A stretch of DNA of 64,000 nt, taken from contig NZ_LNDE01000001.1 in NCBI RefSeq assembly GCF_002866025.1, positions 620,001-684,000 of the forward strand. The letters are read 5' to 3'. Positions 5,750 to 20,701 of the stretch are shown here, one piece after another; the stretch's first letter is position 1, and the number at the start of each line of letters is the position of its first letter. A program made the translations under genes and the position numbers. The notes beneath the pieces were generated by a model. It did no database searches. It had not been told where the DNA came from and saw only the letters and a program-made list of their open reading frames with translations. The DNA is from Thermotoga sp. KOL6 (lineage in GTDB: Bacteria > Thermotogota > Thermotogae > Thermotogales > Thermotogaceae).

Positions 5750-5824
5750 TGGTAGCCCCACGGGGAATCGAACCCCGACCTCCGGACTGAGAATCCGGCG
5801 GACTGGCCGTTATCCTATGGGGCC
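5750..5824 (-). tRNA. tRNA-Glu (anticodon CTC)
   Basis: The minus strand folds as a cloverleaf. The acceptor stem GGCCCCA/TGGGGCT is followed by A and an encoded CCA. The anticodon stem CCGGA/TCCGG encloses loop TTCTCAG, giving anticodon CTC (decodes GAG). The T arm GGTTCGATTCC is standard. It has its own promoter and terminator, so it is a single-gene unit between two minus-strand protein genes. Confidence 0.95.
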
Positions 5825-5869: not shown

Positions 5870-6829
5870 TCACCTTTTCGGCTGTATATCTTCCACAATG
5901 TTGATCTCATCGAGAAGAAGATCCGACTCCGCCGCGTAAGGAACGTATCCCTTGTTTTTTGCCTGTCGATAGAAATTTTTTATTCTCTCTAAATTTTCAA
6001 AAGAATTTCCACCGTCATCAACGTAATCGACTACCAATATAAACTTTCCATGGACTTTCAAGGTGTCTAAATATTTTATTCTCTCCCTCGTTTCATTGAA
6101 AGGCAGGGGAGTTGTTTTGAAATAGAACAAATGTTCCACTGCCCATCCAGAAACAGACGAGATCAGTTCTCCGTTATCGAAATCTATGATACTTTCCGCA
6201 TTCTGTGGTATGACGATGAAATCCGGATCTTTTTCACGAGTATACTCAATGATATTCAGAACGAAATCTATCATTTCAAGCGCTGCCTCTTCTTTCCGAA
6301 TTTCACCTTTTATGTCCGACCAATATTCGAACGAATCTACCCTATCCAAATAAACACCCTTGAATCCTTGAGAAATAATTTTATCAATGTACGAAAACAC
6401 TATTTTTTGCCACTCTGGATACCAATATCTTACAAAAAAGTTGCCGGGCCAATGAGGATCTTCCTCCCCAAGCCAATCTGGTGGGTTTTTATCCCATTCT
6501 TTTTTCCAATAAAAACGATAGTTTTCCGCTTGCCCTATGCTTACGTACGCAATCGGTGTCGTACCAGCTTCAAAAATCGTGTTTATTTCCTCGAAAGAGA
6601 ACTCTCCATCCTCGTTACCATTCCTTGAATAATCTATAACCGCCAGGTCGAAACCCGCGGACGCTATATCTTGAGGTTCTACATTTTGAAGCTGATAAAC
6701 CCAGCTTTGGTAAGGGCTTTCGAAGAAAGCTCTGTGAATACATGATGTTACAAATACTGATATCATAGTTACTACTGTTGTAATGACCATTATAATGAAC
6801 CTAGAGGTTTTCTTTGCCAAGAAAATCAT
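5870..6829 (-). CDS. GH114/GH166-like glycoside hydrolase (TM1410/PelA-hydrolase type), probable lipoprotein
   Basis: A 319-residue protein beginning with a basic, hydrophobic signal segment that ends in FVTSC, a plausible lipobox, then a (beta/alpha)8-type domain of the TM1410/endo-alpha-1,4-polygalactosaminidase group. Visible motifs are AVIDYSRNG, YVSIGQAENYR and GVYLDRVDSFEYW, the last carrying conserved acidic residues. The hydrolase domain of Pseudomonas PelA is reported to resemble TM1410. Together with the divergent DUF2194 gene this suggests the two halves of PelA as separate proteins acting on an amino-sugar polymer. The start at 6829 has a weak ribosome binding site; 6790 is an alternative. 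Confidence 0.75.
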   Translation of the reverse strand: MIFLAKKTSRFIIMVITTVVTMISVFVTSCIHRAFFESPYQSWVYQLQNVEPQDIASAGFDLAVIDYSRNGNEDGEFSFEEINTIFEAGTTPIAYVSIGQAENYRFYWKKEWDKNPPDWLGEEDPHWPGNFFVRYWYPEWQKIVFSYIDKIISQGFKGVYLDRVDSFEYWSDIKGEIRKEEAALEMIDFVLNIIEYTREKDPDFIVIPQNAESIIDFDNGELISSVSGWAVEHLFYFKTTPLPFNETRERIKYLDTLKVHGKFILVVDYVDDGGNSFENLERIKNFYRQAKNKGYVPYAAESDLLLDEINIVEDIQPKR

Positions 6830-6854
6830 CCCTTTCTCAGGAGGAGTGAATACC

Positions 6855-8996
6855 ATGGTAAAAAAAGCTTTCCTGATGATTTTGATTATAATTGTTTTCC
6901 CACTTTTTGCAAGGACCTTGCTCCTCTACAAAGGTTCAGAGAACGGCTACGGCTACAACATACTGGTTTCTTATGTGGTTCCCTCGCTCGAAAACGCGGG
7001 AGAAGAGTACAAACTGGTGGATATTGAAAAAGACTTCCCTAACTTCGAAGAATACGATCTCATAGTGAGTTGTTATTACTCCTCTTCAATGCCAGAAGCA
7101 AAGCGATATTTGAAGGAACTTTCTAACTTCATATTGAATGGTGGTAGGCTCTTTGTAATAAATAACTTAGGGGCTTTTGAGGGAACCTCCCTTGAAGAAA
7201 TAAACGCTGTTCTGAATTTACTGGGAGTTCGTTTTGAATACAACTGGCGGACAGAAAGGGTTATCGAATACGAAATTAACAAAAACTATCTTCTGTCCCC
7301 ACCTGTGACACCCGTTCTCAAATCTTTCGATGGCTTTGAAATCTTTTCAAATACAACAGAAGTTGTCGCTTGGGCAAAAACCTCTACGGGGAAGTACCCT
7401 GTCGTTTTCTACAACGAGCAGGGAGGAATGGCACTGTTCGACCACGCGTTCAACGAAAAAGGAGAACCTGTTCTAGATCTGGGAAAAATCGTGAGTAGGA
7501 TTCTTCTAGGAAGACCTACCAACAGAATTTTAACGCTTTTCAACGATCCTAACATTTTGGCGATTTTCAAAAACGCTTTCTTCGAAATAGAAACTACTCC
7601 GAGAAAACCGTTGATCCAATACAAAGCAATCGTTTTATCGAACTTGAACACCTTAAACGATAAAGTCATGAAGAGGTATCTGGAAAGCGGCGGTGTCGTA
7701 ATTTTGGTAGGTAGTGGACCGAGAACGGTTCGTGGGAAGGTTGTTGTGAAAAAGGACCATCTTGATATCCCCATGGATCTTTCACTGTTTGAAACCACCG
7801 TCAATTACACAGAAGCCCCTGAAACGGCGATTCCTTTTATAACTGTAGATGGCACTCCCGTTTCTTGGATGATGAAGGTGGGAAAAGGCAGTCTTGTTTT
7901 CTTCCCAAAATCGTTGAACGAAAAGCTAACGAGAGGATTTTTGTTCGATGAGTTTCTCGCTGCTTCAAATTCTTTGATAACACCCATAGTAAATTCTTTT
8001 TCTATCTTCCTCGATGATTTTCCACTACCAACTTACAATTTAAAACACGAAATAGCGAAATTTAAGGACGTTACCTTCTACTACAAAATCTGGTGGCCCG
8101 ATTTAGAGAAGATCTTCAAAGATTTCTCCGTGAAACCCATCACTGCGTTGGTAACTAGCTACATGAACACTCCGTATTATGTGGGATTTTCAGAGTTTCT
8201 TCTAAACACAGAAAACGTTGAATTCTTGAAAGGCATAATAAATAACGATGGAGTGGAACTGGGATTGCACGGTTACAATCATCTTTCGCCCCTTTCAAAA
8301 AATTGGGATCCATCGGAACTCGAAAAATCCTACAGAGCTTTGAAAATATTCCTGAAACATCTGAAGGAAGGCTGGACCCCGCTGAGTTTCGTGGCTCCAG
8401 ACAACAGAATAGATAAACTTGGACTCAGCGTGTTAAAAAAAGTCTTCCCTCACATTCTCGTTGTTGGCACCACCTTTCTCTCCGACGATGAGTTTTCCGA
8501 GTTCAAACTCTTAAACGGAACCCTTGTACTACCTAGAAACGTGAGTGGCTTTTATCCCCTCAGTAAACTTCTAGTCCAAACGACTTCTACCTTGTTGAAC
8601 ATAGGTACTTTCAACTATTTCGTTCATCCCGACGACGTGTTTTCTAAAGATAGAAATCCGCAAGGATTATCGTGGGATGAAATGAAAAACTCTATGAGAG
8701 AATTTTTGAAAGTAGTGAGAGATTACTACCCATGGGTAAAAAACTCCGATTCATCTCAAACTTACGAAGTTTTCAAAGAATTTTTCGAAAATCCTCCAAG
8801 TATAGTCTACTACGACGACAAAATAAAGGTATGGCTTCCAAGAAACGCAGAACTTCCCCGATATTTCTTTTTGAAAAACAGCAGTCGCGAGATGAACGTA
8901 AAAGGTGGCAAAATACTGCACAAGTCGAAAAATTTTCTAGTCTTGGAAATGACAACTCATGAAATGGAAATCACTGGACCAACGACTTCGTTCTGA
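6855..8996 (+). CDS. DUF2194 polysaccharide deacetylase-like protein (PelA deacetylase counterpart)
   Basis: A 713-residue exported protein with a signal peptide at residues 1-20, an N-terminal region of about 370 residues with flavodoxin/glutamine-amidotransferase-like alternation (GGRLFVINNLG, GGVVILVGSG), and a C-terminal carbohydrate-esterase-4-like domain. Candidate metal ligands are Asp387-Asp388 in LDDFP and His472/His476 in HGYNH, in the order seen in polysaccharide deacetylases. DUF2194 genes commonly accompany PelF/PelG. It probably removes acetyl groups from the secreted polymer in the periplasm. The ATG at 6855 follows GGAGGAG. It is divergent from the hydrolase gene by only 25 bases. 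Confidence 0.75.
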   Translation: MVKKAFLMILIIIVFPLFARTLLLYKGSENGYGYNILVSYVVPSLENAGEEYKLVDIEKDFPNFEEYDLIVSCYYSSSMPEAKRYLKELSNFILNGGRLFVINNLGAFEGTSLEEINAVLNLLGVRFEYNWRTERVIEYEINKNYLLSPPVTPVLKSFDGFEIFSNTTEVVAWAKTSTGKYPVVFYNEQGGMALFDHAFNEKGEPVLDLGKIVSRILLGRPTNRILTLFNDPNILAIFKNAFFEIETTPRKPLIQYKAIVLSNLNTLNDKVMKRYLESGGVVILVGSGPRTVRGKVVVKKDHLDIPMDLSLFETTVNYTEAPETAIPFITVDGTPVSWMMKVGKGSLVFFPKSLNEKLTRGFLFDEFLAASNSLITPIVNSFSIFLDDFPLPTYNLKHEIAKFKDVTFYYKIWWPDLEKIFKDFSVKPITALVTSYMNTPYYVGFSEFLLNTENVEFLKGIINNDGVELGLHGYNHLSPLSKNWDPSELEKSYRALKIFLKHLKEGWTPLSFVAPDNRIDKLGLSVLKKVFPHILVVGTTFLSDDEFSEFKLLNGTLVLPRNVSGFYPLSKLLVQTTSTLLNIGTFNYFVHPDDVFSKDRNPQGLSWDEMKNSMREFLKVVRDYYPWVKNSDSSQTYEVFKEFFENPPSIVYYDDKIKVWLPRNAELPRYFFLKNSSREMNVKGGKILHKSKNFLVLEMTTHEMEITGPTTSF

Positions 8997-9024
8997 GGTA
9001 GAATAAACATCGAGAGGTGGAATT

Positions 9025-10710
9025 GTGAATGTAAGGACTCTTCAAGAGACAATAAAAGATGTGATTTACAGAAGAAATCTGCTTTTTGTTCTTATCATAT
9101 CAATAGCCGTGTCTATTGTAGTAACGTTGATCACTTATCATATAGAAAAAAGAACTGTATTAGAAAAGTTAAATTTTATAGAAAAAGAATGGAGCAAAAC
9201 GATAGACAATTACAAAGACATCCTAAATTTTCTTGCAAATAATCCTAGTAATTTTAGAAATCCCGGTGATATTTTGAAAGCGCTAAAGTTGATTCGTGAG
9301 TATTTCAGTGACTATACCGCGTACCCCATCTTCGCTACCCCCGATGGGAACTACTACATATACCCTTCTGCCACTTTACCACCAGGTTACGATCCAAGAG
9401 AACGACCTTGGTACAAATCTGCTGTTGAAAATCCTAACGTTGCGGTTATTTCCCCTCCTCTTGTGCACAAGATTCTCAACGTTGTTACGATTGGAATTTC
9501 GAGAGCTGTATTCGATGAAAATGGGAAATTTTTGGGAGTTTTGGCTGTAGACATAGTCCCTGAAAAAATTATGAAAGACGTTCTTCCCATTGGGGTCTAC
9601 GTTATGAACAAGGGTGGAAAGGTCCTTCTTCAAAACGGGAAGATCTTCGTTCACGTTTCTCCTGAAAACGAAGATACAGGCGTGAAATTTCAAGCCTCTT
9701 ATATTGCTTTCTTCAAGAGATCGATAGACGACACCGTGTTCGTGATGCAACTACCATTCTTCAAAATTCTAAGAAATTCTCTACTCCACATAGGCTATAT
9801 ATTCGGTCTTTCCTATCTTCTTGGTATGATTATTTTGACAAAGATTAAAAGGGTTCTCATCAAGGAATTGAACGAACCGCTGAAGAAATTTTCCCGATCG
9901 GCTGAAGAATACTTGCGTTCGAGAGTTTTCGATGTATCGGGAATCTCTTCCAACATCCTGGAGATCAACCAACTGATTGATGATGTAGCAGACATGATTA
10001 CGATCATAGAATCTCAGCGTGAAGAGTTGGAAGCGTCGTACGAAGAACTCGAGGCCTCTTATTCCGAACTGCAAAAAATGGCACAAGAGATCGAAGAGAA
10101 AGGTCGAGCACTCGCTGAAGCTTACGAGTTCTTCGCATATAAAATGGCAGACATCGTTGAAGGATTCGACGAGCCTACGGGAGCACACGTAAGAAGAGTA
10201 CAAGAGCTTTCTAGATTTTTCGCAGAGAAATTAGAACTTCCCGAAGATTTGGTGAGACAAATCTATCTTTACTCACCTCTTCATGACATTGGAAAGATTA
10301 GAGTTCCAAAAGAAATTTTGAACAAAAAAGGAAGACTTACCCCGGAAGAGTGGGAAATCATGAAAAAACACACTGTCTGGGGTGGAGAGTTGCTTTCCGG
10401 AAGAAAGGAGTTGACGGTAGCAAAGAACATCGCTCTCTATCACCATGAAAACTACGACGGAACAGGTTATCCTTTCGGTTTGAAAAACGGTGAGATCCCA
10501 ATAGAAGCTCAGATCGTGAAATTAGCGGATGTTTACGACGCGCTTCGCTCGAAAAGACCATACAAGCCCGCTTTGGATCACGAAACCGCTGTGAGGATCA
10601 TCCTAGAAGGAGACGGAAAGACCTTACCTTCCCACTTCAATCCGGAACTTCTAAAGATACTCAAAAAATATAGCGAAGAGATAAAAAAGATTTGGGAGAG
10701 TGCGCAATAG
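9025..10710 (+). CDS. Cache-domain sensor HD-GYP phosphodiesterase (c-di-GMP)
   Basis: A 561-residue membrane sensor. A transmembrane helix at about 18-37 is followed by a periplasmic Cache domain (signature YDPRERPWY) up to about 245, a second membrane helix at about 253-272 and a long coiled coil rich in EELEASYEEL repeats (about 325-370). The C-terminal HD-GYP domain keeps His420-Asp421, His473-His474 and the Gly481-Tyr-Pro signature, so it should hydrolyse cyclic di-GMP. GTG start with GAGAGGTGG just upstream. It sits 28 bases after the DUF2194 gene on the same strand and probably links an extracellular signal to polymer production. Confidence 0.9.
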   Translation: MNVRTLQETIKDVIYRRNLLFVLIISIAVSIVVTLITYHIEKRTVLEKLNFIEKEWSKTIDNYKDILNFLANNPSNFRNPGDILKALKLIREYFSDYTAYPIFATPDGNYYIYPSATLPPGYDPRERPWYKSAVENPNVAVISPPLVHKILNVVTIGISRAVFDENGKFLGVLAVDIVPEKIMKDVLPIGVYVMNKGGKVLLQNGKIFVHVSPENEDTGVKFQASYIAFFKRSIDDTVFVMQLPFFKILRNSLLHIGYIFGLSYLLGMIILTKIKRVLIKELNEPLKKFSRSAEEYLRSRVFDVSGISSNILEINQLIDDVADMITIIESQREELEASYEELEASYSELQKMAQEIEEKGRALAEAYEFFAYKMADIVEGFDEPTGAHVRRVQELSRFFAEKLELPEDLVRQIYLYSPLHDIGKIRVPKEILNKKGRLTPEEWEIMKKHTVWGGELLSGRKELTVAKNIALYHHENYDGTGYPFGLKNGEIPIEAQIVKLADVYDALRSKRPYKPALDHETAVRIILEGDGKTLPSHFNPELLKILKKYSEEIKKIWESAQ

Positions 10711-10733
10711 GATAAGAGAGATTACCCATTCTC

Positions 10734-10772
10734 TTGACTGTGCTTCCATATATATGTATAATACATATATGG
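10734..10772 (+). promoter_or_regulatory. Strong promoter overlapped by a palindrome, upstream of the small Gly/Trp genes
   Basis: TTGACT (10734-10739) and TATAAT (10757-10762) are 17 bases apart, close to consensus. A dyad CCATATAT...ATATATGG (10746-10772) spans the -10 element, with inner halves ATGTAT/ATACAT. Its placement suggests an operator for a repressor or other dimeric regulator. The regulator is not identified. Confidence 0.7.
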
Positions 10773-10782
10773 AGGTGAGAGC

Positions 10783-10986
10783 ATGTGGTGGGGCGGCGGT
10801 TTCGGTTGGAGAAGAGGATGGAGAGGAGGTTTTGGATTCGGTTTCGGTCCCTGGTGGATGTACGCTGAATTTCCACCATATTCAGTCGAAGATGAAAAGG
10901 AAATGTTGAAAGAGTACAAAAGATTTTTGGAAGAGGAACTTAGATACGTTGAAGAGAGGCTGAGAGAATTGGAAAACAGGAGGTGA
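10783..10986 (+). CDS. Small Gly/Trp/Arg-rich protein with C-terminal coiled coil (DUF5320-like)
   Basis: A 67-residue protein in two parts: residues 1-27 are almost only Gly, Trp, Arg and Phe (MWWGGGFGWRRGW type), and residues 34-67 form a charged helix (KEMLKEYKRFLEEELRYVEERL). This layout resembles DUF5320 proteins. The function is unknown; a scaffold or surface/metal-associated role is only a guess. GGAGGTGAGAGC precedes the ATG. Expression should be strong given the near-consensus promoter. The second small gene starts 4 bases after its stop. Confidence 0.7.
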   Translation: MWWGGGFGWRRGWRGGFGFGFGPWWMYAEFPPYSVEDEKEMLKEYKRFLEEELRYVEERLRELENRR

Positions 10987-10990
10987 GAAT

Positions 10991-11134
10991 ATGTGGTGGC
11001 TGAGATGGCCAGGCTACGCGTGGAGAGGATTTAGGTGGGAACGGATGAGGCTGTGGCCAATATGTTTGGGTGGATTCGGACTGGGATTGACTTGGCGTCA
11101 CAGAAGAGGATGGGGTTGGAAAAGCTGGTGGTAA
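10991..11134 (+). CDS. 47-residue Trp/Arg/Gly-rich protein
   Basis: This ORF of 47 codons contains about ten Trp and nine Arg residues, starting MWWLRWPGYAWRG. Its ribosome binding site AGGAGGTGA (10978-10986) covers the stop of the preceding small gene and sits 4 bases before the ATG, which makes translation likely. It resembles the N-terminal half of its neighbour without the coiled coil. It is co-transcribed with that gene and with the MBL-fold gene, whose GTG is 3 bases after its stop. Function unknown. Confidence 0.6.
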   Translation: MWWLRWPGYAWRGFRWERMRLWPICLGGFGLGLTWRHRRGWGWKSWW

Positions 11135-11137
11135 ACC

Positions 11138-11905
11138 GTGCTCGTGCACGTTATATGTGACGACTCCGCTTTAGAAGGATTAGAACACGAACATGGTTTT
11201 TCAGCGGTTACGAACACAATACTCTTCGACACGGGAAAAACTGACGTTTTTTTAAAAAACTTAAAGAAAATGCACATGGAAGTTCCAAAAAATGTTGTGA
11301 TCAGTCACGGACACTACGATCACATTGGTGGTCTTGCTTTTCTTTCCAACAAGAGAATCTGGATTCGAAAAGAAGCCCTCTTTCCAAAGTATTCTGGAAA
11401 TAAGTATGCTGGATACCCTCACGATTGGAACGATGTTGCTACAAAAAACGAAGTCATTTTCGTTGAAGACAGGTTACTTGAGCTCGAACCCGGTGTCTTT
11501 TTGATCGGACCGGTGAACTTGAGAAATGATGTTTCTTTTGGGGAATTTTACGTAGAAAAAAGCGGCACGAAACAAAAAGATCTTTTTGAAGATGAACAAA
11601 CGTTGATTTTAACCACAGAAGAAGGTCTAGTTGTTATAACTGGGTGTTCTCATCGTGGGATCGACAACATAGTACTGGATATCTCGGAGATTTTCAACAA
11701 AAGTATTCAGTTGCTAATAGGCGGTTTTCATCTTTTGAACGCTTCCGAAAAGAGAATAGAGAAAATCGTCAAGGTCTTCAACGATCTAAGAATAAAAGGT
11801 ATCGCCCCTTGTCATTGTACCGGAAACAGAGCGATAGAGATTTTCAAAGAAAAATTCAGTGGAACGGTGTTAACATGCAAAGCAGGTGTTAAGTTGAGGG
11901 TTTGA
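11138..11905 (+). CDS. MBL-fold metallo-hydrolase (COG1237-like)
   Basis: A 255-residue metallo-beta-lactamase-fold protein. The metal motif HGHYDH is at residues 57-62, followed by LFDEDEQTL, ITGCSHRGI and GGFHLL, the ligand segments of the COG1237 branch (annotated as dihydropterin phosphate synthase-like). That name rests on one methanopterin enzyme, so the substrate here is open. GTG start with GGTGG 6 bases upstream. It is the third gene of the strong-promoter unit at 10734 and overlaps the HD-GYP gene tail-to-tail by 17 bases. Confidence 0.8.
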   Translation: MLVHVICDDSALEGLEHEHGFSAVTNTILFDTGKTDVFLKNLKKMHMEVPKNVVISHGHYDHIGGLAFLSNKRIWIRKEALFPKYSGNKYAGYPHDWNDVATKNEVIFVEDRLLELEPGVFLIGPVNLRNDVSFGEFYVEKSGTKQKDLFEDEQTLILTTEEGLVVITGCSHRGIDNIVLDISEIFNKSIQLLIGGFHLLNASEKRIEKIVKVFNDLRIKGIAPCHCTGNRAIEIFKEKFSGTVLTCKAGVKLRV

Positions 11906-13064
11906 GATTTTTGATCTCAGAAAGGTGAGTTGCCAGAATTTCAACAATTTTCTGATCTAAAGGCATTTCCTTCATGAGGTTTACAGCATCTTCTGGCTTC
12001 AAGCTTTTTCTGTACGGTCTGTCACTGGTGAGGGCATCATACACATCCGCAACTGCTATAATCCTTGCAAAGAGAGGTATTTCATCGTTTTTCAAGCCTT
12101 CTGGATAACCAGAACCGTCGATCCTTTCATGGTGGTAAAGTACAGCAGACACGATAGAAGAAAGCTCAGGGTATTCCCTCAAGATATCCGCTCCTATTTG
12201 CGGATGTCTTTTTATCACTTCAAATTCTTCATTTGATAGCTTCCCGGGTTTGTTGAGAATGTGTTCAGGTACTGCTATTTTCCCGATGTCGTGGAGTTTT
12301 CCAGATGCTTCTAGAGCCTTCAAGTCTTTTCTTTTGAGTCCCATCTTTTCTCCCAAGAAAACAGCTATTTTTGATACGTTTCTGGAGTGGATAGCTGTGT
12401 AATGATCTTTCCTCCCCACAATGTTCACTATCCTTTCAAGACCCTCTGTTTCGTAATGTGCTTTCAGAACAGAATTTACAAAGAACACATGAAAAGCCAT
12501 CATAAGAATCATTCCAACGATGGTTCCTTGGAAAGAAACGAAAAACCAGTCGTTTTTATTCGATACATACTCCAATCCCCAAAAGGTTTTCTTCCCACCT
12601 TTTTTAAACCTCACGCTTGCTCCTATCGAATTGAGAATTCGGTTCGCATCCCATTCAACCAAAGCCGTTTTGTTTGGTATCATATCTTCTCCCATGCTAT
12701 CGTAGATCTTGAAACGAACCCAAATTCTCTCACCGTCCGACTCTACATGATAATATCCTTCCTCAAAATTCGGAGGTTGATCCAGAATCTCTATCTTCTT
12801 TATGTAAGGATCGAGAGATTTGATTTCTTTGAAAGCCTCCTCTATGAATTCTTTATCATTTTGCTCTATTGCCATCTTCAGTTCTGTCCATTGGAAATAC
12901 CCACTGGACACCAAATCTATGGAACACTGAGCAATAACTCGGAAAACCTTCAGTTGATAGGTTTCTATCTTCTTTTGATAGTGTAGCTGAACAAACACGA
13001 ATCCGAGAAATATGAGAATGGCGGCTCCTACAAAAAACCATCTATGACGTGAGAGATACCACAA
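11889..13064 (-). CDS. Membrane HD-GYP phosphodiesterase (c-di-GMP)
   Basis: A 391-residue protein with a membrane helix at about 9-27, a periplasmic sensor region of about 150 residues without a recognised domain, a second helix at about 182-198 and an HD-GYP domain. His258-Asp259, His311-His312 and GYP at 319-321 are intact, so c-di-GMP hydrolysis is expected. The start is TTG at 13064, about 10 bases after GGAGGG. It is the last gene of a three-gene unit (DUF218, DUF996, HD-GYP) read away from pelF. Confidence 0.88.
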   Translation of the reverse strand: MWYLSRHRWFFVGAAILIFLGFVFVQLHYQKKIETYQLKVFRVIAQCSIDLVSSGYFQWTELKMAIEQNDKEFIEEAFKEIKSLDPYIKKIEILDQPPNFEEGYYHVESDGERIWVRFKIYDSMGEDMIPNKTALVEWDANRILNSIGASVRFKKGGKKTFWGLEYVSNKNDWFFVSFQGTIVGMILMMAFHVFFVNSVLKAHYETEGLERIVNIVGRKDHYTAIHSRNVSKIAVFLGEKMGLKRKDLKALEASGKLHDIGKIAVPEHILNKPGKLSNEEFEVIKRHPQIGADILREYPELSSIVSAVLYHHERIDGSGYPEGLKNDEIPLFARIIAVADVYDALTSDRPYRKSLKPEDAVNLMKEMPLDQKIVEILATHLSEIKNLKPST

Positions 13065-13086
13065 TTCTTCTTAGCCCTCCTGATCC

Positions 13087-13593
13087 TTATGCCTGTTCAC
13101 GAGCAGGAACGGAGAAAAACCCTATCAAGGCGAGTATATCACCGATAAACATCAAAATGAGCCCCACTCCAAAAACAATCATGAGAATGGCTCCCCATTT
13201 GTAAAAAGACGCAGCGATGTTGAAAATAGGAACTTTGAGAACCTCGGCGAGCAACCTGTACGCTTTCACTTTGTACACCAAAGCTACTATACCTAGAACC
13301 ACAATGACCAAAAATCCAAAAAGAGCCACACCACTTGCAAAAATCCCTCCTACAAACAAGGCAGCTGCTAGAAATACACCGTATACAAAAGAAGCTATGA
13401 GTAGCAAAATGGCGGGTATCAACAGAAAATTGAAAATTCTTCTTTCACCGGTGATCTGAGAAATGTTGTAGATGCCCATCAAAAAGAAAATCGTTCCAAT
13501 CAGCGAAAAGATCCATCCCACAGCTGGTATCGCTCCAAAGAAACCCAGTATCAATCCAACCCCTGCCATGATCTTCGCTGTCGACAAATTCAT
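13087..13593 (-). CDS. DUF996 family membrane protein
   Basis: A 168-residue protein with four to five membrane helices. The early pattern, a Gly-rich first helix pair followed by GIYNISQITGERRIF, matches DUF996, a family seen in archaea and Thermotogota. The function is unknown. A GGGGAGGTGA site lies 4 bases before the ATG. It is placed between the DUF218 and HD-GYP genes with short gaps, so it is probably co-expressed with them. Confidence 0.7.
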   Translation of the reverse strand: MNLSTAKIMAGVGLILGFFGAIPAVGWIFSLIGTIFFLMGIYNISQITGERRIFNFLLIPAILLLIASFVYGVFLAAALFVGGIFASGVALFGFLVIVVLGIVALVYKVKAYRLLAEVLKVPIFNIAASFYKWGAILMIVFGVGLILMFIGDILALIGFFSVPAREQA

Positions 13594-13597
13594 TCTT

Positions 13598-14308
13598 TCA
13601 CCTCCCCTTCAGATTGTACCAGAGAATTCCAATCCATTCGTATACGGCACGCGAGTTCAGATAGAAGGAGGTTGAATTCGGAAAGAAATCGATAAATTCA
13701 GGTGTGCCGAAGTAACAACCTGCTGGATAGGGTACAACCGTTTTGAAAAATCTTTTGAATGTGAAAAGAGCCCTTCTCATGTGTATGGAATCGGTTACAA
13801 GTATTATCGGCGTGTCGCCACCCAATATCTCTTTCGTGAAGATGGCATTCTCGTACGTATTTTTTGATCTGCTCTCGACTAAAATATCTTTTTCTGAAAC
13901 GCCGAGAGAAAGAAGATATTCTTTCATCACCACTGCTTCAGGTTTAATTTGTGAAAAACCACCACCACTGAGAAGGACAGGAAAACCAGTCTCTTTATGA
14001 ATTTGAAAACCGGCCATGAGCCTTCTCAAAGTAGAATCTTTCAAACTATCTCCCAATCTCGTCCCTCTCTCTACTCCACCACCAAGAACCACGATTACCG
14101 CGTTTCTAGGCAATGTTGAAAACGTCAGGTTTTTTTCCAGAGGTCGAAGAAGAAAAAATTCTCCGGGATAGCTACTTAAAAGGTACAAAAGCACAGCAAG
14201 AACCAAATAGAACCATTTTTTTCTCTTCAACAAAAAAGCACCGAAGACAAGGAACAAGATCAAGATTCCGGGAGGAATCAGAAAACTTCCAATGATTTTT
14301 TGAAGCAA
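13598..14308 (-). CDS. DUF218/YdcF-SanA-ElyC family membrane protein
   Basis: A protein of about 236 residues with two N-terminal membrane helices and a DUF218 domain: VIVVLGGGVERG, LLSGGG, ESRSKNTYENA and VTDSIHMRRA are the characteristic blocks. Members such as ElyC and SanA act in envelope or undecaprenyl-phosphate-linked metabolism, so a role in cell-surface polymer assembly fits its neighbours. The TTG at 14308 lies 6 bases after GGGGGG; the ATG at 14335 would sit at or next to the predicted transcription start. It is divergent from pelF. Confidence 0.72.
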   Translation of the reverse strand: MLQKIIGSFLIPPGILILFLVFGAFLLKRKKWFYLVLAVLLYLLSSYPGEFFLLRPLEKNLTFSTLPRNAVIVVLGGGVERGTRLGDSLKDSTLRRLMAGFQIHKETGFPVLLSGGGFSQIKPEAVVMKEYLLSLGVSEKDILVESRSKNTYENAIFTKEILGGDTPIILVTDSIHMRRALFTFKRFFKTVVPYPAGCYFGTPEFIDFFPNSTSFYLNSRAVYEWIGILWYNLKGR

Positions 14309-14341
14309 AGCTGACCCCCCTTTTGTGAAAAACATGTTTTA

Positions 14342-14349
14342 ATTATAAC
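14342..14349. promoter_or_regulatory. Divergent AT-rich promoter between the DUF218 gene and pelF
   Basis: The minus strand shows TATAAT at 14347-14342, and the plus strand reads TATAAC at 14344-14349. The -35 elements are weak on both strands. The elements overlap, so the two divergent units are probably expressed from one short region. Confidence 0.4.
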
Positions 14350-14366
14350 TAAGGAGGGGATCCAGA

Positions 14367-15782
14367 ATGAAAATAGGTATCGTCTCGGAAGGAAGTTATC
14401 CGTACGTTCAAGGAGGCGTCTCAACATGGGTTCATGAACTTATATCCAACCTTCAGGAATTTGAATTCGAGATTTATTACATAAAACCTGACTCAGAGAA
14501 AATGGTTCCTAAGTACGAAATCCCAAAAAATGTTACGGGAATTTACGAACTCAACATCTTCGGATTCTACAATCCATCCTTGCCTGATGATTTGGATCTA
14601 TCTCCTGTTGAACAAATAGTGGATGCAATAACTCGAAAGGAAAGTTTGGACACCATCTCCAAAAATGTGATTGAACTCATCCGAAAAAATGCAGGAAAAG
14701 CCTTTGGAAAATTTTTCGAAAGCAAAATATTTTGGGATGCAACGGTAAAAACCTACGAGAAATTCTTCAACTATCGAGGATTCACGGAGTATTATTGGAT
14801 GGTCAAGAATCTCCTTCTTCCTATATTCAATTCACTTCAGTTCATCCCAGACAAATGTGACATTTTCCACGTTCCGAGTACGGGTTACGCTTCACTCGTT
14901 GGAATCGTCGGAAAGTTCATCCACAACGCTCCTCTAATCATAACAGAACATGGAATTTATCACCGCGAAAGAGAAAGAGAAATCATCATCTCCAACTGGA
15001 TACCCGATGATTACAAACCAATGTGGATAAATATGTTTAAGATTTTGAGCAAAGTCGCCTATGAAGTTAGTGATGTGTTAATAACATTGTTCGGAAGAAA
15101 TCAGATGTTTCAACTGGAGTTGGGGGCAGATCCCAAGAAAATGATGATCATTCCTAACGGGGTGGATGTAGAAAAATTAGTCTCTTTAAAAAGGGAAAAA
15201 CATGAAGGATTCAGTGTGGCTTTCGTTGGAAGAATCACCAGGATAAAAGATATTAAAACGTTGATAAAAGCTTTTGAAATTGTCAAAGAAATCGTTGGAG
15301 AGAGGAGAATAAAACTTCTCCTGATAGGACCCATAGAAGACGATAGATATTACAAAGAGTGTGCTCAACTGATAGAAGAATTGAATTTGGAAGATTACAC
15401 AGAATTTCTCGGGCATCGCGACGTCAACGATTATTATCCGAGAATCGATCTGTTGGCCTTGAGCAGTGTTTCAGAAGGACAACCTTTGGTTCTTTTAGAG
15501 GCTATGGCGATGGGTATTCCAATCGTAGCAACAGATGTGGGTGCGTGTAGAGAACTAGTTTACGACGAAATAGGACAATGTGGTATTATCGTTCCTCCGA
15601 AAGATTATATAAGCATGGCAAAAGCTATCTTGAAAATCTATGAAGACAAGGAGATGAGAGAAGCTTTCTCAAAAAATGCCAGGAAGATCGTTGAAAAAAA
15701 GTACAGACTGGATCTTGTGATCGAGCGTTACAGAAACTTATATCTCAATCTCCTGAAGAGAGAAACTTTTTCAAAGATCTGA
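14367..15782 (+). CDS. pelF: PelF-type GT4 glycosyltransferase
   Basis: A 471-residue cytoplasmic retaining glycosyltransferase of family GT4. The N-terminal hallmark GSYPYVQGGVSTWVHELI is diagnostic of PelF, the UDP-sugar-using transferase that builds Pel polymer on the inner face of the membrane. The C-terminal nucleotide-sugar domain has FVGRITRIKDIKTLI and the catalytic pair Glu370-x7-Glu378 (SEGQPLVLLEA). AAGGAGGGG precedes the ATG. It runs toward the pelG-pelD-pelE unit and overlaps the end of the pelE-like gene by 38 bases. Confidence 0.93.
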   Translation: MKIGIVSEGSYPYVQGGVSTWVHELISNLQEFEFEIYYIKPDSEKMVPKYEIPKNVTGIYELNIFGFYNPSLPDDLDLSPVEQIVDAITRKESLDTISKNVIELIRKNAGKAFGKFFESKIFWDATVKTYEKFFNYRGFTEYYWMVKNLLLPIFNSLQFIPDKCDIFHVPSTGYASLVGIVGKFIHNAPLIITEHGIYHREREREIIISNWIPDDYKPMWINMFKILSKVAYEVSDVLITLFGRNQMFQLELGADPKKMMIIPNGVDVEKLVSLKREKHEGFSVAFVGRITRIKDIKTLIKAFEIVKEIVGERRIKLLLIGPIEDDRYYKECAQLIEELNLEDYTEFLGHRDVNDYYPRIDLLALSSVSEGQPLVLLEAMAMGIPIVATDVGACRELVYDEIGQCGIIVPPKDYISMAKAILKIYEDKEMREAFSKNARKIVEKKYRLDLVIERYRNLYLNLLKRETFSKI

Positions 15783-16548
15783 ATTTTTCATATTCTTTGT
15801 TCTTCACAAGTTCGACCAACAAAAGCCCGAGAATCTCCCTTGATTTGGTTTCCTTCAAGCCTTCGAAAAGAACCGAAACATCCCCCTGAACTTTATACTT
15901 CAAGACGAAGTACTCTGGTGTTTTACCCAGAGTTTCTATCTTTTTAATCAAAAATTCTTTGTAACGTCTTCTTTTTTCACCACTCCAAAAATCCGACTTC
16001 AAATAATCCTCCACAGCATTGTTGAGCTCTTCTATCATAAGAGGAGTGTTAGTAGATTCCCCAAAGAAACTTTCTATTTCACCGATCGATTCTGAAGCGT
16101 AGAGAACCACATCAGGATGGGGATCCAGAACCAGTTTTTTAAGGAAAGGAACAATTTTATCAACTTTCACTTTTCCCTTTTTTAGATCATCTACTAACTG
16201 CAGAATCAGACGTTTCTTTTCTTCTGGTGATCCGAAATAACACACCGCCTTCGGATGAAGAATGTTTACATTCTTTTTTCTGAAAACAAAAAATTTCTCA
16301 TTCTGACCTTCTTCGGGGAATCGTACGTTCAATATTTTCGTGAAGGTGATCAGTCCAAGGGGGTACGTTAGGAGGGCAACGAGTGTTTGCACTGGATCCC
16401 TGTTCACTAAGAAGTGAACGACAAGATTTGCTCCAAACACAAAAAAGAAGAAATCGTTTTCTCCTTTCAGCCAGAAAAGTATGTTCACTAAACCTATGGC
16501 AAAATTTATAGAATTAGCAGTTAACAAAATCGATGTCTTCGATTTCAT
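15745..16548 (-). CDS. PelE-like membrane protein with helical repeats
   Basis: A 267-residue protein with two or three N-terminal membrane helices (about 8-27, 33-48 and 55-72) followed by an all-helical cytoplasmic part with a HEAT-like unit (DPHPDVVLYASESIGEI). Pseudomonas PelE likewise has membrane helices plus TPR helices and is encoded next to pelD. The assignment rests on position and topology, not on a sequence motif. The start overlaps the pelD end by 35 bases, with GAGG 7 bases upstream. The 3' end overlaps pelF on the other strand. Confidence 0.55.
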   Translation of the reverse strand: MKSKTSILLTANSINFAIGLVNILFWLKGENDFFFFVFGANLVVHFLVNRDPVQTLVALLTYPLGLITFTKILNVRFPEEGQNEKFFVFRKKNVNILHPKAVCYFGSPEEKKRLILQLVDDLKKGKVKVDKIVPFLKKLVLDPHPDVVLYASESIGEIESFFGESTNTPLMIEELNNAVEDYLKSDFWSGEKRRRYKEFLIKKIETLGKTPEYFVLKYKVQGDVSVLFEGLKETKSREILGLLLVELVKNKEYEKFRSLKKFLSSGD

Positions 16549-17698
16549 GTCTCAACCTCTCCATAACAGATATTTTCCCTATCTCATCACAAAGAGGAAG
16601 TAAAATTTTTAATTGAACGCTCTCAACATCTTCAAAGATTTTCGCCACAAGGTCATCCTTCCTCAGAGCATTCAAAACGTTTCTTAATTCGTTACTAGGT
16701 ACTTTTACACAGATTTCCGAGAAAGGGAGACCATACTTTGCATAAAGATTTTGATACTTTTGTCTCTCCGAGTTGTAGCGATTCAGATCGTATGTGCCAT
16801 CGGGAAGTTTGTACTCTTCGATCTTTCCCTTTTCTTCCCTTTGAAACTCTCTAACACTGATGTAGAACCATCCTGCCAACGCCTTTAGATGGTTCTCCAC
16901 TTTGTCGAGTTCACCCGGGTTCATTCTTTCAACGACAATCACCCCGAATGGATCTTTTTCATTTTCACCTATCCTGATTGCAAGCCACGGCTCTCTGAAT
17001 CTTTCATCACTCAGACTGTCAATGATTTCCACTATGGAGCAACTGCCGTTTCTCAAAGCGTTTTTTACAACCAAAGAGTCGTTCAATAGAGTGGAAAAAT
17101 GAGAATCAGGAAACGAAGGCACGCTCGCAAAGATTCTCAAAAAACCTTGATTGTAAACCCATATGGAAATTCCTTCCAAGTCGAAAAATTCAGCCACAAT
17201 CTCCAAGAATCTATGGGCAAACAACCTCAGATCGTCTCTCGGCAACTCCGTCAACTTCAAAAATAAAGAACTCACTCCTTCAGTTTCGTAAGCAAGCTTG
17301 GTTTTGAGAGTATCGATGACGTTTTCAAAATAATTCGCTTGTCTCTCCAACGTCTCCAGACTCGATTCTGCCCGTCTCAATTTCTCTTCATAATCACGCA
17401 AACTTTCGAGCCGAGCTTTGTTTATCAAGGCCACTGCAAAGGAGGTACTCAAGATGACAACGTGTGATGTGTACGCACCAAAAGAGATTTCACTTTCAGC
17501 TAGAATTATCGCAAAGATTGTGTAAAGAAGCATGTTGAGTATGTGGTAAAGTATATCGTATCTAACGGATATAACGAACAAAGGAACGTAGAAAAAGGCG
17601 GTGAAGATGTCTTGATCGTTTTCAGGAAGAAGATGGATCAATAGGAAGATACCAAGATAAGTGCCTATTATTTCCAGAACTCGAACGAACTTTCTCAT
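16514..17698 (-). CDS. pelD: PelD-type c-di-GMP receptor of the exopolysaccharide synthase
   Basis: A 394-residue protein with about four N-terminal membrane helices (residues 8-112), a coiled-coil linker, a GAF domain (about 150-275) and a degenerate GGDEF domain at the C-terminus. The segment LRKDDLVAKIFEDVESVQLKILLP aligns by eye with the LRxxDLVARxGGDEFxxLLP stretch of diguanylate cyclases: the GGDEF active site is lost, but the RxxD inhibitory site (Arg346-Asp349) remains. This is how Pseudomonas PelD binds c-di-GMP. It lies 7 bases after pelG, with GGAGGT upstream of the ATG. Confidence 0.82.
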   Translation of the reverse strand: MRKFVRVLEIIGTYLGIFLLIHLLPENDQDIFTAFFYVPLFVISVRYDILYHILNMLLYTIFAIILAESEISFGAYTSHVVILSTSFAVALINKARLESLRDYEEKLRRAESSLETLERQANYFENVIDTLKTKLAYETEGVSSLFLKLTELPRDDLRLFAHRFLEIVAEFFDLEGISIWVYNQGFLRIFASVPSFPDSHFSTLLNDSLVVKNALRNGSCSIVEIIDSLSDERFREPWLAIRIGENEKDPFGVIVVERMNPGELDKVENHLKALAGWFYISVREFQREEKGKIEEYKLPDGTYDLNRYNSERQKYQNLYAKYGLPFSEICVKVPSNELRNVLNALRKDDLVAKIFEDVESVQLKILLPLCDEIGKISVMERLRHEIEDIDFVNC

Positions 17699-17705
17699 AC
17701 GTTCA

Positions 17706-19061
17706 TTACCTCCTCGGTTTCCAATGAAGTTTCTCTACTTTCTCTAATTTCCACGATTGTTTAGTGTAGATCTTGAAAATAACATTTTTCGTGTTGAATC
17801 TAAGCACAAAAAAGACAACTCCGAAAAGAAAAGAAAGGAAGAAACTCAGTCCCGGAACTTCTCTGATTGTAAAAATAGAGAGCAAAAGGTTCGATACAAA
17901 AACAACAACAGATGCTTCAAAAACCAGCATGTACTCTTCAAAATGAAGGCACATTATAAGGAAAAACATGAACAGAGAGTTGAAAAAACCACCGAAAAGT
18001 GCCATTCTGAAAATATTCACTGATCTTTCGGAAAACTTCAACCATTTTCCTATAAAATCACTCGACAAAAGACCAACGATCAAAATCAATGCGTTCATCG
18101 TCAACAATCTTGTAAAAACACCTTCCATCGCACGCTGAGTGTCTTTCAGTTTTATCTTCACATATTCCAAAGGTTTGTTGTTCTTTATCGCGGAGAGAAA
18201 GGCAAGATAATTTCTCAAAAATCGTGTTTCAACACTTACGCTGAGTAGAACCATTGGAAGGACGAAAAACAACAATGCTGAGAAGAAAGGGAAATCGTAC
18301 TCTGGATAGATCACTACGTGAGGTGTCACTTCTTCGCCCATCGCCCACCATGCAACCATGTTATCCGTCCAATAGGACAAGTAATAGAAAAAACCCATAA
18401 AGAACAACATTGGATATCTCTTGATCAATTTCATAAAATCGAAACTCATTCTGTTCGTCGTCCTAAAATACACAGATATTATGAGATTTATCAAAAACAC
18501 TACCAAACTTATTGCAAGTGAGAAGATTATGAGAAATTCTCCTTCATTCAATTTACCCTGATGTGTCTCTACAAAGATCACAGCGGGGAGAAAACCGAGG
18601 ATGAACGACAAGATGATGAAAAAATTCCTTTCTATTATGCCAGCAAATTGAAGGGAGAGCTGCATCAGTGTTAGAATCACAAAGAGATAGACTGCCACGT
18701 TCCTATATGGATACCCTCTGAACAGAATCAAACCAATCATCAACGATACAACAAATGCCAGAAGAAAAGATCCTGAATAATTTTTGTAGATTTCTTCAAC
18801 TTTTCTGGAATACACGAAGTCCGAAAGCGTTCTAAGAATCGCATACAAAACACTTCCGGAGAGTATAGCAGAGAATATGAAGGAATAAGTTAAAACACCG
18901 AGAGCCGAAGGAGGAATAGATATCTTCCTGTACGACCATAACACAAAAATAAAAGGAAACAACCAAGGGGAAGAATAGATAAAAGTGGAGTACACTAACG
19001 CCACTACGTTACCGAAAAATGTGTTTCGATAGAAAGGAAGGTCAAAAGTCTTACCTGCCAT
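17706..19061 (-). CDS. pelG: PelG-type exopolysaccharide export/synthase membrane protein
   Basis: A 451-residue integral membrane protein with about 12 helices. PelG family blocks are visible: YSSPWLFPF near residue 30, GFFYYLSYWTDNMVAWW in the middle, and YPEYDFPFFSALLFFVLP. PelG is the MOP-like partner of PelF, with which it forms the inner-membrane synthase/transporter together with PelD and PelE. The ATG at 19061 follows GGGAG by 8 bases. It is the first gene of the pelG-pelD-pelE unit. Confidence 0.9.
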   Translation of the reverse strand: MAGKTFDLPFYRNTFFGNVVALVYSTFIYSSPWLFPFIFVLWSYRKISIPPSALGVLTYSFIFSAILSGSVLYAILRTLSDFVYSRKVEEIYKNYSGSFLLAFVVSLMIGLILFRGYPYRNVAVYLFVILTLMQLSLQFAGIIERNFFIILSFILGFLPAVIFVETHQGKLNEGEFLIIFSLAISLVVFLINLIISVYFRTTNRMSFDFMKLIKRYPMLFFMGFFYYLSYWTDNMVAWWAMGEEVTPHVVIYPEYDFPFFSALLFFVLPMVLLSVSVETRFLRNYLAFLSAIKNNKPLEYVKIKLKDTQRAMEGVFTRLLTMNALILIVGLLSSDFIGKWLKFSERSVNIFRMALFGGFFNSLFMFFLIMCLHFEEYMLVFEASVVVFVSNLLLSIFTIREVPGLSFFLSFLFGVVFFVLRFNTKNVIFKIYTKQSWKLEKVEKLHWKPRR

Positions 19062-19102
19062 TTTTAACACTCCCGTACTTGAAAACTCGTTATATATAAA
19101 TT

Positions 19103-20598: not shown

Positions 20599-20625
20599 AA
20601 TGCCCTCGGCAAGCCCGAGGGCATT
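20599..20625 (-). terminator. Terminator hairpin downstream of tRNA-Pro
   Basis: An 11-bp stem (AATGCCCTCGG type, 20599-20609 with 20615-20625) with a 5-base loop. On the minus strand it is followed by TCTTATTTATC. Its upstream arm reaches the last base of the encoded CCA. It also lies directly after the plus-strand FlhB-like gene, but no T-tract follows on that strand. Confidence 0.7.
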
Positions 20626-20701
20626 GGTCGGGGCGACTGGACTTGAACCAGCGACCTCTTGCGCCCCATGCAAGCGCGCTAGCCACCTGCGCTACGCCCC
20701 G
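20625..20701 (-). tRNA. tRNA-Pro (anticodon GGG)
   Basis: The minus-strand cloverleaf has acceptor stem CGGGGCG/CGCCCCG with A and an encoded CCA. The anticodon stem CTTGC/GCAAG encloses loop ATGGGGC, giving anticodon GGG (decodes CCC and CCU). The T arm GGTTCAAGTCC is standard. Start and overall layout are typical of bacterial tRNA-Pro. Confidence 0.95.

Follow-up and report, generated by a model that had tools for sequence, protein, structure and literature searches.

The pelABCDEFG system of Pseudomonas aeruginosa shares PelD (TM-GAF-GGDEF, with an RxxD motif), PelE, PelF and PelG with the locus of Thermotoga sp. KOL6 described here. In contrast to it, Thermotoga has no bifunctional PelA, its hydrolase and deacetylase being encoded by separate genes; PelC is lacking as well, and no PelB is seen in the locus. 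Separate PelADA and hydrolase genes represent the Gram-positive arrangement (PMC7112168). The pelDEADAFG operon of Bacillus cereus ATCC 10987 (PMC7112168, PMC13254593) has in common with Thermotoga PelD, PelE, PelADA, PelF and PelG, a separate hydrolase gene, the I-site of the c-di-GMP receptor and the lack of PelB and PelC in the locus. Thermotoga differs from it by the presence of an outer sheath/outer membrane, by a PelADA with an extended N-terminal part (about 710 aa in all), by a hydrolase of family GH191 and by gene order (blocks pelGDE / pelF / DUF2194 / GH instead of D-E-ADA-F-G).

A plasmid locus of Cetobacterium somerae (Fusobacteriota; L087) has the order GH - PelD - DUF2194 - PelE - PelF - PelG and, like Thermotoga, lacks PelC in a phylum that bears an outer membrane, but it is a single compact operon and its hydrolase is circularly permuted. 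TM1410 of T. maritima (GH191, PDB 2AAM/9EUX) is the orthologue of the hydrolase studied here and adjoins the DUF2194 gene in its own genome.

The analyzed window comprises 64,000 nucleotides (positions 620001-684000 of contig 1; genome size 1.71 Mb). It very probably holds one complete PelADA-type Pel system of a Thermotoga species, the scattered layout of which arose from a compact double locus. On sequence evidence, the system is a rearranged and reduced Pel system of the PelADA type. The original prediction, which saw in it a candidate for an undescribed system, is not supported in this respect, since the PelADA type was already known (PMC7112168) and one sentence of a 2020 paper had mentioned Pel operons in Thermotogae (PMC7112194). 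All genes named in that prediction were recovered as intact ORFs where it had placed them (ORF and family profile searches).

The exopolysaccharide and biofilm of T. maritima are documented (PMC3065215), and no paper assigning this exopolysaccharide to Pel was found in the literature. Pel is a concrete candidate for this long-observed polymer.

Synthase Complex

The pelF gene (14367..15782, + strand) encodes a GT4 glycosyltransferase matching NF038011 (323.8 bits against a cut-off of 100; 2.2e-96) and DUF3492 (2.9e-77). The product of pelG (17706..19070, - strand), a putative polytopic translocase, matches PF16933 (227.4 bits against a cut-off of 29; 4.5e-67). With these profile matches, both identities, as originally proposed, can be considered certain. 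PelG of the window is 38-40% identical to other Thermotoga copies and 23% identical to proteobacterial PelG; it belongs to the divergent paralogue, set A, of two synthase sets discussed below, as do the other pel genes of this section.

The ORFs of pelD (16514..17698, - strand) and pelE (15745..16548, - strand) gave no Pfam match above the cut-off. PelD is composed of transmembrane segments, a coiled coil, a GAF domain and a degenerate GGDEF domain with an RxxD I-site. When 15 Thermotogota PelD proteins were aligned and compared, profile to profile, with four proteobacterial PelD proteins from annotated pelABCDEFG plasmid loci, the two groups matched (hhalign 98.4%, 9.3e-15). The AlphaFold2 model of PelD (pLDDT 83.9) has helices in the membrane, an extended coiled coil and, where GAF and GGDEF are expected, two domains of mixed alpha/beta fold. 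PelD crystal structures (4EU0, 4ETZ, 4DMZ, 4DN0, 4EUV; E about 7e-7 to 4e-6) make up eight of its ten best Foldseek matches, and 4DN0 and 4EUV among them are c-di-GMP complexes; the top single match is a different diguanylate cyclase, 4ZMU. TM-scores are low due to a different relative orientation of the domains. Both I-site residues, R346 and D349, are invariant in 15/15 Thermotogota PelD proteins. A search of PDB sequences with the PelD profile returned no PelD match. The Pfam model PF16963 (PelD_GGDEF) matched nothing in the genome, and it missed the controls likewise, so its silence is no evidence of absence. The PelD assignment, initially made from architecture, is supported by profile-profile comparison, Foldseek and synteny.

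PelE is a two-TM protein with a helical repeat domain, over which it matches proteobacterial PelE (hhalign 94.1%, 1.2e-7); its AF2 model is all-helical. The pelE gene adjoins pelD in the loci examined, and the PelE-like gene suspected next to pelD is supported by both the match and this synteny.

Deacetylase and Hydrolase

The DUF2194 ORF (6783-8996, + strand) matches PF09960 (7.4e-148) and contains a DUF2334 patch; by sequence reading its true start is likely at 6855, which gives a product with a signal sequence encoded at 6855..8996. The window protein alone matches Bacillus cereus PelADA (PDB 9ZAU) with 7.6e-30; for the Thermotogota DUF2194 profile the value is 1.3e-61, and the match spans about 430 residues. 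Experiments have shown BcPelADA to be a Pel de-N-acetylase; its active-site aspartate pair, HxxxH motif and late histidine (PMC13254593) correspond to the residues invariant in DUF2194, D411/D412, H496-x3-H500 and H615 (numbered on the 737-aa ORF that begins at 6783). DUF2194 is likely the PelADA deacetylase family. A profile comparison of DUF2194 with proteobacterial PelA gave no significant match (probability 0.5%). Only two papers mentioning DUF2194 were found in the literature searched; one lists genes with changed expression in Fusobacterium, the other is on a cysteine database.

The divergently oriented hydrolase ORF (5870-6856, - strand) matches GH114 (9.8e-27) and TIGR01370 (2.9e-123). 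Its likely true start, again by sequence reading, is at 6829 and the product (5870..6829) carries the lipobox VTSC, suggesting an endo-galactosaminidase-like lipoprotein. The best structural counterpart is T. maritima TM1410 (PDB 9EUX/2AAM, 1.5e-124), with weaker matches to PelA (5TCB/5TSY). The active-site stretches YLDxxD and VSGWxVExLFY are kept in Thermotoga GH191 members. Of the GH114/GH166-like character predicted for the hydrolase, the GH114 part is supported by the GH114 and TIGR01370 profiles, but its CAZy family is GH191 (that of TM1410) and not GH166.

TM1410 was placed in the new family GH191 in 2025, the substrate of the T. maritima enzyme being left open (PMC12054363). Env-GH191, an environmental member, cleaves Pel, and endo-galactosaminidase activity is shown only for this enzyme; Pel is reported as tested with Env-GH191, and TmGH191 neither cleaved nor bound fungal GAG oligomers (PMC12054363). 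The word operon is absent from that paper. The pel neighbourhood of the TM1410-type hydrolase argues for Pel as its probable substrate. In this way two orphan families gain a likely job, DUF2194 as the PelADA deacetylase family and TM1410/GH191 as a member of the pel locus. The proposal that the hydrolase and DUF2194 stand in for bifunctional PelA is supported by homology to TM1410/GH191 and PelADA 9ZAU and by the constant company of DUF2194 with PelG.

Hydrolases similar to GH191 are circularly permuted in the pel loci of Cetobacterium (L087:4193-5092) and Ca. Mcinerneyibacterium (L064:7285-8223), profile positions 160-260 (160-279) coming first and about 25-153 second. The control genome of Methanocaldococcus jannaschii, a co-culture partner of T. 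maritima, encodes a TIGR01370 (GH191) protein and gives a weak DUF2194-like match.

Enzymes of c-di-GMP Turnover and Precursor Supply

Between the DUF2194 gene and pelF lie genes for a dCache-HD-GYP protein resembling c-di-GMP phosphodiesterases (9025..10710, + strand; HD_5 1.4e-33, dCache_1 1.1e-15), a metallo-beta-lactamase-fold (MBL) protein (11138-11905, from family search) and a membrane HD-GYP protein (11889..13064, - strand; HD_5 3.8e-40). A DUF996 protein and then an ElyC-like DUF218 protein are encoded between the second HD-GYP gene and pelF (family searches). Two short Trp/Gly-rich ORFs were read at 10711-11137, between the dCache-HD and MBL genes.

The HD-GYP enzymes between the pel pieces might form a dedicated Pel regulatory module and not be ancestral neighbours. 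HD-GYP genes do occur beside pel loci in other families as well (L048, L052, L078), and in one locus a YcgR/PilZ c-di-GMP receptor gene is located directly upstream of pelD (L051:3576-4247). However, the HD-GYP genes of the window are also present in two Thermotoga genomes without pel, and in T. maritima the block is located about 230 kb from pel. Because the block is kept in pel-less Thermotoga, its enzymes are rather unlikely to be dedicated to Pel, and they are better regarded as ancestral neighbours.

Eight GGDEF domains are encoded in the genome, therefore synthesis of c-di-GMP is probably possible. The best candidate in the genome for galE, a possible source of UDP-GalNAc, scores 218 bits against a curated cut-off of 262, which does not confirm a dedicated galE. 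A search for c-di-GMP riboswitches and other RNA in window positions 1-30000 found tRNAs only.

Duplication, Rearrangement and Loss of Synthase Sets

Three congeners (G092, presumably T. neapolitana, G094 and G095) possess two complete pelDEFG sets, A and B, around one hydrolase-deacetylase pair. The order is pelG-pelD-pelE (forward), pelF (reverse), GH191 (reverse), DUF2194 (forward), pelG-pelD-pelE (forward), pelF (reverse). In G092 and G095 pelF of set B is directly followed by the dCache-HD, MBL, HD-GYP, DUF996 and ElyC genes. The window has this block 28 bp after DUF2194, and an inverted set A lies beyond it, five genes and 5.4 kb separating DUF2194 from set A. The search for set B remnants in the window returned only the set A genes themselves. 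In phylogenetic trees, PelG and PelD of the window cluster with set A (100/99); for PelF this grouping is weaker (91/72), and PelE is not resolved.

Of the two sets, the window retains A, in a new and inverted position, and has lost B. In T. maritima (G091, which we take to be strain MSB8) it is B that was kept and A that was lost, only a truncated pelF of A being present. Two further Thermotoga genomes are without pel. The layout of the window is derived, because the pel genes are contiguous or compact in relatives: it is a secondary rearrangement of an ancestral compact double locus. Contiguity in one operon is usual for PelADA-type Pel systems but not a functional requirement. From the ancestral locus, which carried the two pelDEFG sets as paralogues, set B would have been lost cleanly between the DUF2194 and dCache-HD genes, and set A would have come to lie, by inversion, beyond the HD-GYP block. 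The dispersed arrangement of the original prediction is real in so far as five genes split the pel genes of the window, but it is not typical, since close relatives have a compact locus. Elsewhere in Thermotogota, other families have compact pelD-E-x-F-G-DUF2194-GH operons, and in one other group pelGDE is far from pelF-DUF2194. The rearranged pel region lies between genes of tRNA-Glu (5750-5824) and tRNA-Pro (20625-20701), which may be landmarks of the rearrangement borders.

Set A could alternatively be a paralogue that is neofunctionalized or in decay. The lost set B would then have been the canonical Pel machine, set A would make a different polymer or be on its way out, and DUF2194 and GH191 would be leftovers. 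PelG of set A matches the Pel family model with about 1e-58 to 1e-67, far below PelG of set B (1e-95 to 1e-105), and has longer branches in the tree; moreover, the window no longer has set B, and pel was lost altogether in two congeners. Nevertheless, DUF2194, GH191 and the four genes of set A are all present as intact, full-length genes, the I-site of PelD and the deacetylase motifs are conserved, and set A is kept beside set B in three other species. Loss or change of Pel function in set A is unlikely on this evidence, and a complete, rearranged Pel system remains the preferred explanation.

Distribution of the DUF2194 Gene and pel Genes

Counts over profile cut-offs were made in 103 Thermotogota genomes; these genomes are related, and Fisher p-values are not independent evidence. 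DUF2194 was found in 35/103 genomes, all 35 of which also have PelG. PelF is present in 41 of the 103 (40/41 with PelG), and TIGR01370 (GH191) in 27 (24/27 with PelG, three without). The DUF2194 gene adjoins pelG or pelF in 33/35 genomes, the exceptions being this window and one fragmented genome. A hydrolase and DUF2194 occurring regularly without pelDEFG, which would have spoken against the original prediction, is not the pattern observed.

DUF2194 is part of pel loci in Fusobacteriota, Spirochaetia and Firmicutes as well. It lies inside pel clusters in six loci outside Thermotogota, among pelD-E-F-G of Tepidibacter, a Lachnospiraceae genome (in the locus of which PelE was not detected), Ca. 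Mcinerneyibacterium, two Spirochaetia and Cetobacterium. That pelDEFG make another exopolysaccharide, with DUF2194 and GH191 forming a separate pathway merely nearby, as the five-gene gap in the window and the three genomes with GH191 but no PelG might suggest, is highly improbable given that DUF2194 never occurs without PelG in the 103 genomes, adjoins pelG or pelF in nearly all that have it, is embedded in the six foreign pel clusters and is homologous to the proven Pel deacetylase.

Proposed Mechanism and Export

In the preferred reading as a PelADA-type Pel system, PelF would polymerize a UDP-hexosamine (by homology UDP-GalNAc) at an inner-membrane PelD-PelE-PelF-PelG complex, and occupation of the RxxD I-site of PelD by c-di-GMP would activate this complex. 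Translocation of the chain over the inner membrane would fall to PelG. Once exported to the periplasm, the DUF2194/PelADA protein would remove acetyl groups, yielding a cationic polymer, and the GH191 lipoprotein would trim the deacetylated chain; the product expected of such a system is partially deacetylated alpha-1,4-GalNAc/GalN. The neighbouring HD-GYP proteins may lower c-di-GMP.

The PelC profile found nothing in 12 Thermotogota genomes or in the Cetobacterium plasmid, while it found an independent Azospirillum control (1.9e-20). No PelB-like gene is present in or beside the loci examined; genome-wide, the PelB barrel profile gave no match, but it also missed its own control. The predicted absence of PelC is supported by a working profile; for PelB, the prediction agrees with the gene content of the loci examined. 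Occurrence of Pel loci in diderms with an outer membrane but no PelC raises a sharp question of how the polymer is exported. As a tentative generalization, diderm phyla (Thermotogota, Fusobacteriota, some Spirochaetia) may run PelADA-type Pel without PelB and PelC, the polymer leaving via another exporter or being kept as a cationic matrix between the cell body and the toga. On this view, the two paralogous synthase complexes of Thermotoga would share one deacetylase and would have been reciprocally lost between species. Points that merit further attention are the likely roles given here to DUF2194 and TM1410, the synthase duplication and its reciprocal loss, and PelC-less export.

Directly upstream of pelF, a small single-TM ORF (128-221 aa) is found in several Thermotogota families (L048:11496-12056, L051:6406-6909, L052:10296-10682, L078, L079, L081-L083, L050, L080), and not in Thermotoga itself. 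It was rejected as a PelC analogue: it has a single TM, the sequences read lack a lipobox, and the one scanned belongs to no Pfam family. Nor is the ORF upstream of pelF one conserved gene, as it is FKBP-like in one clade (sequence reading). In Marinitoga-type loci a second, distant PelF-like glycosyltransferase gene follows the hydrolase gene (L081:16637-18100, L060:15490-16685); the L060 copy is broken.
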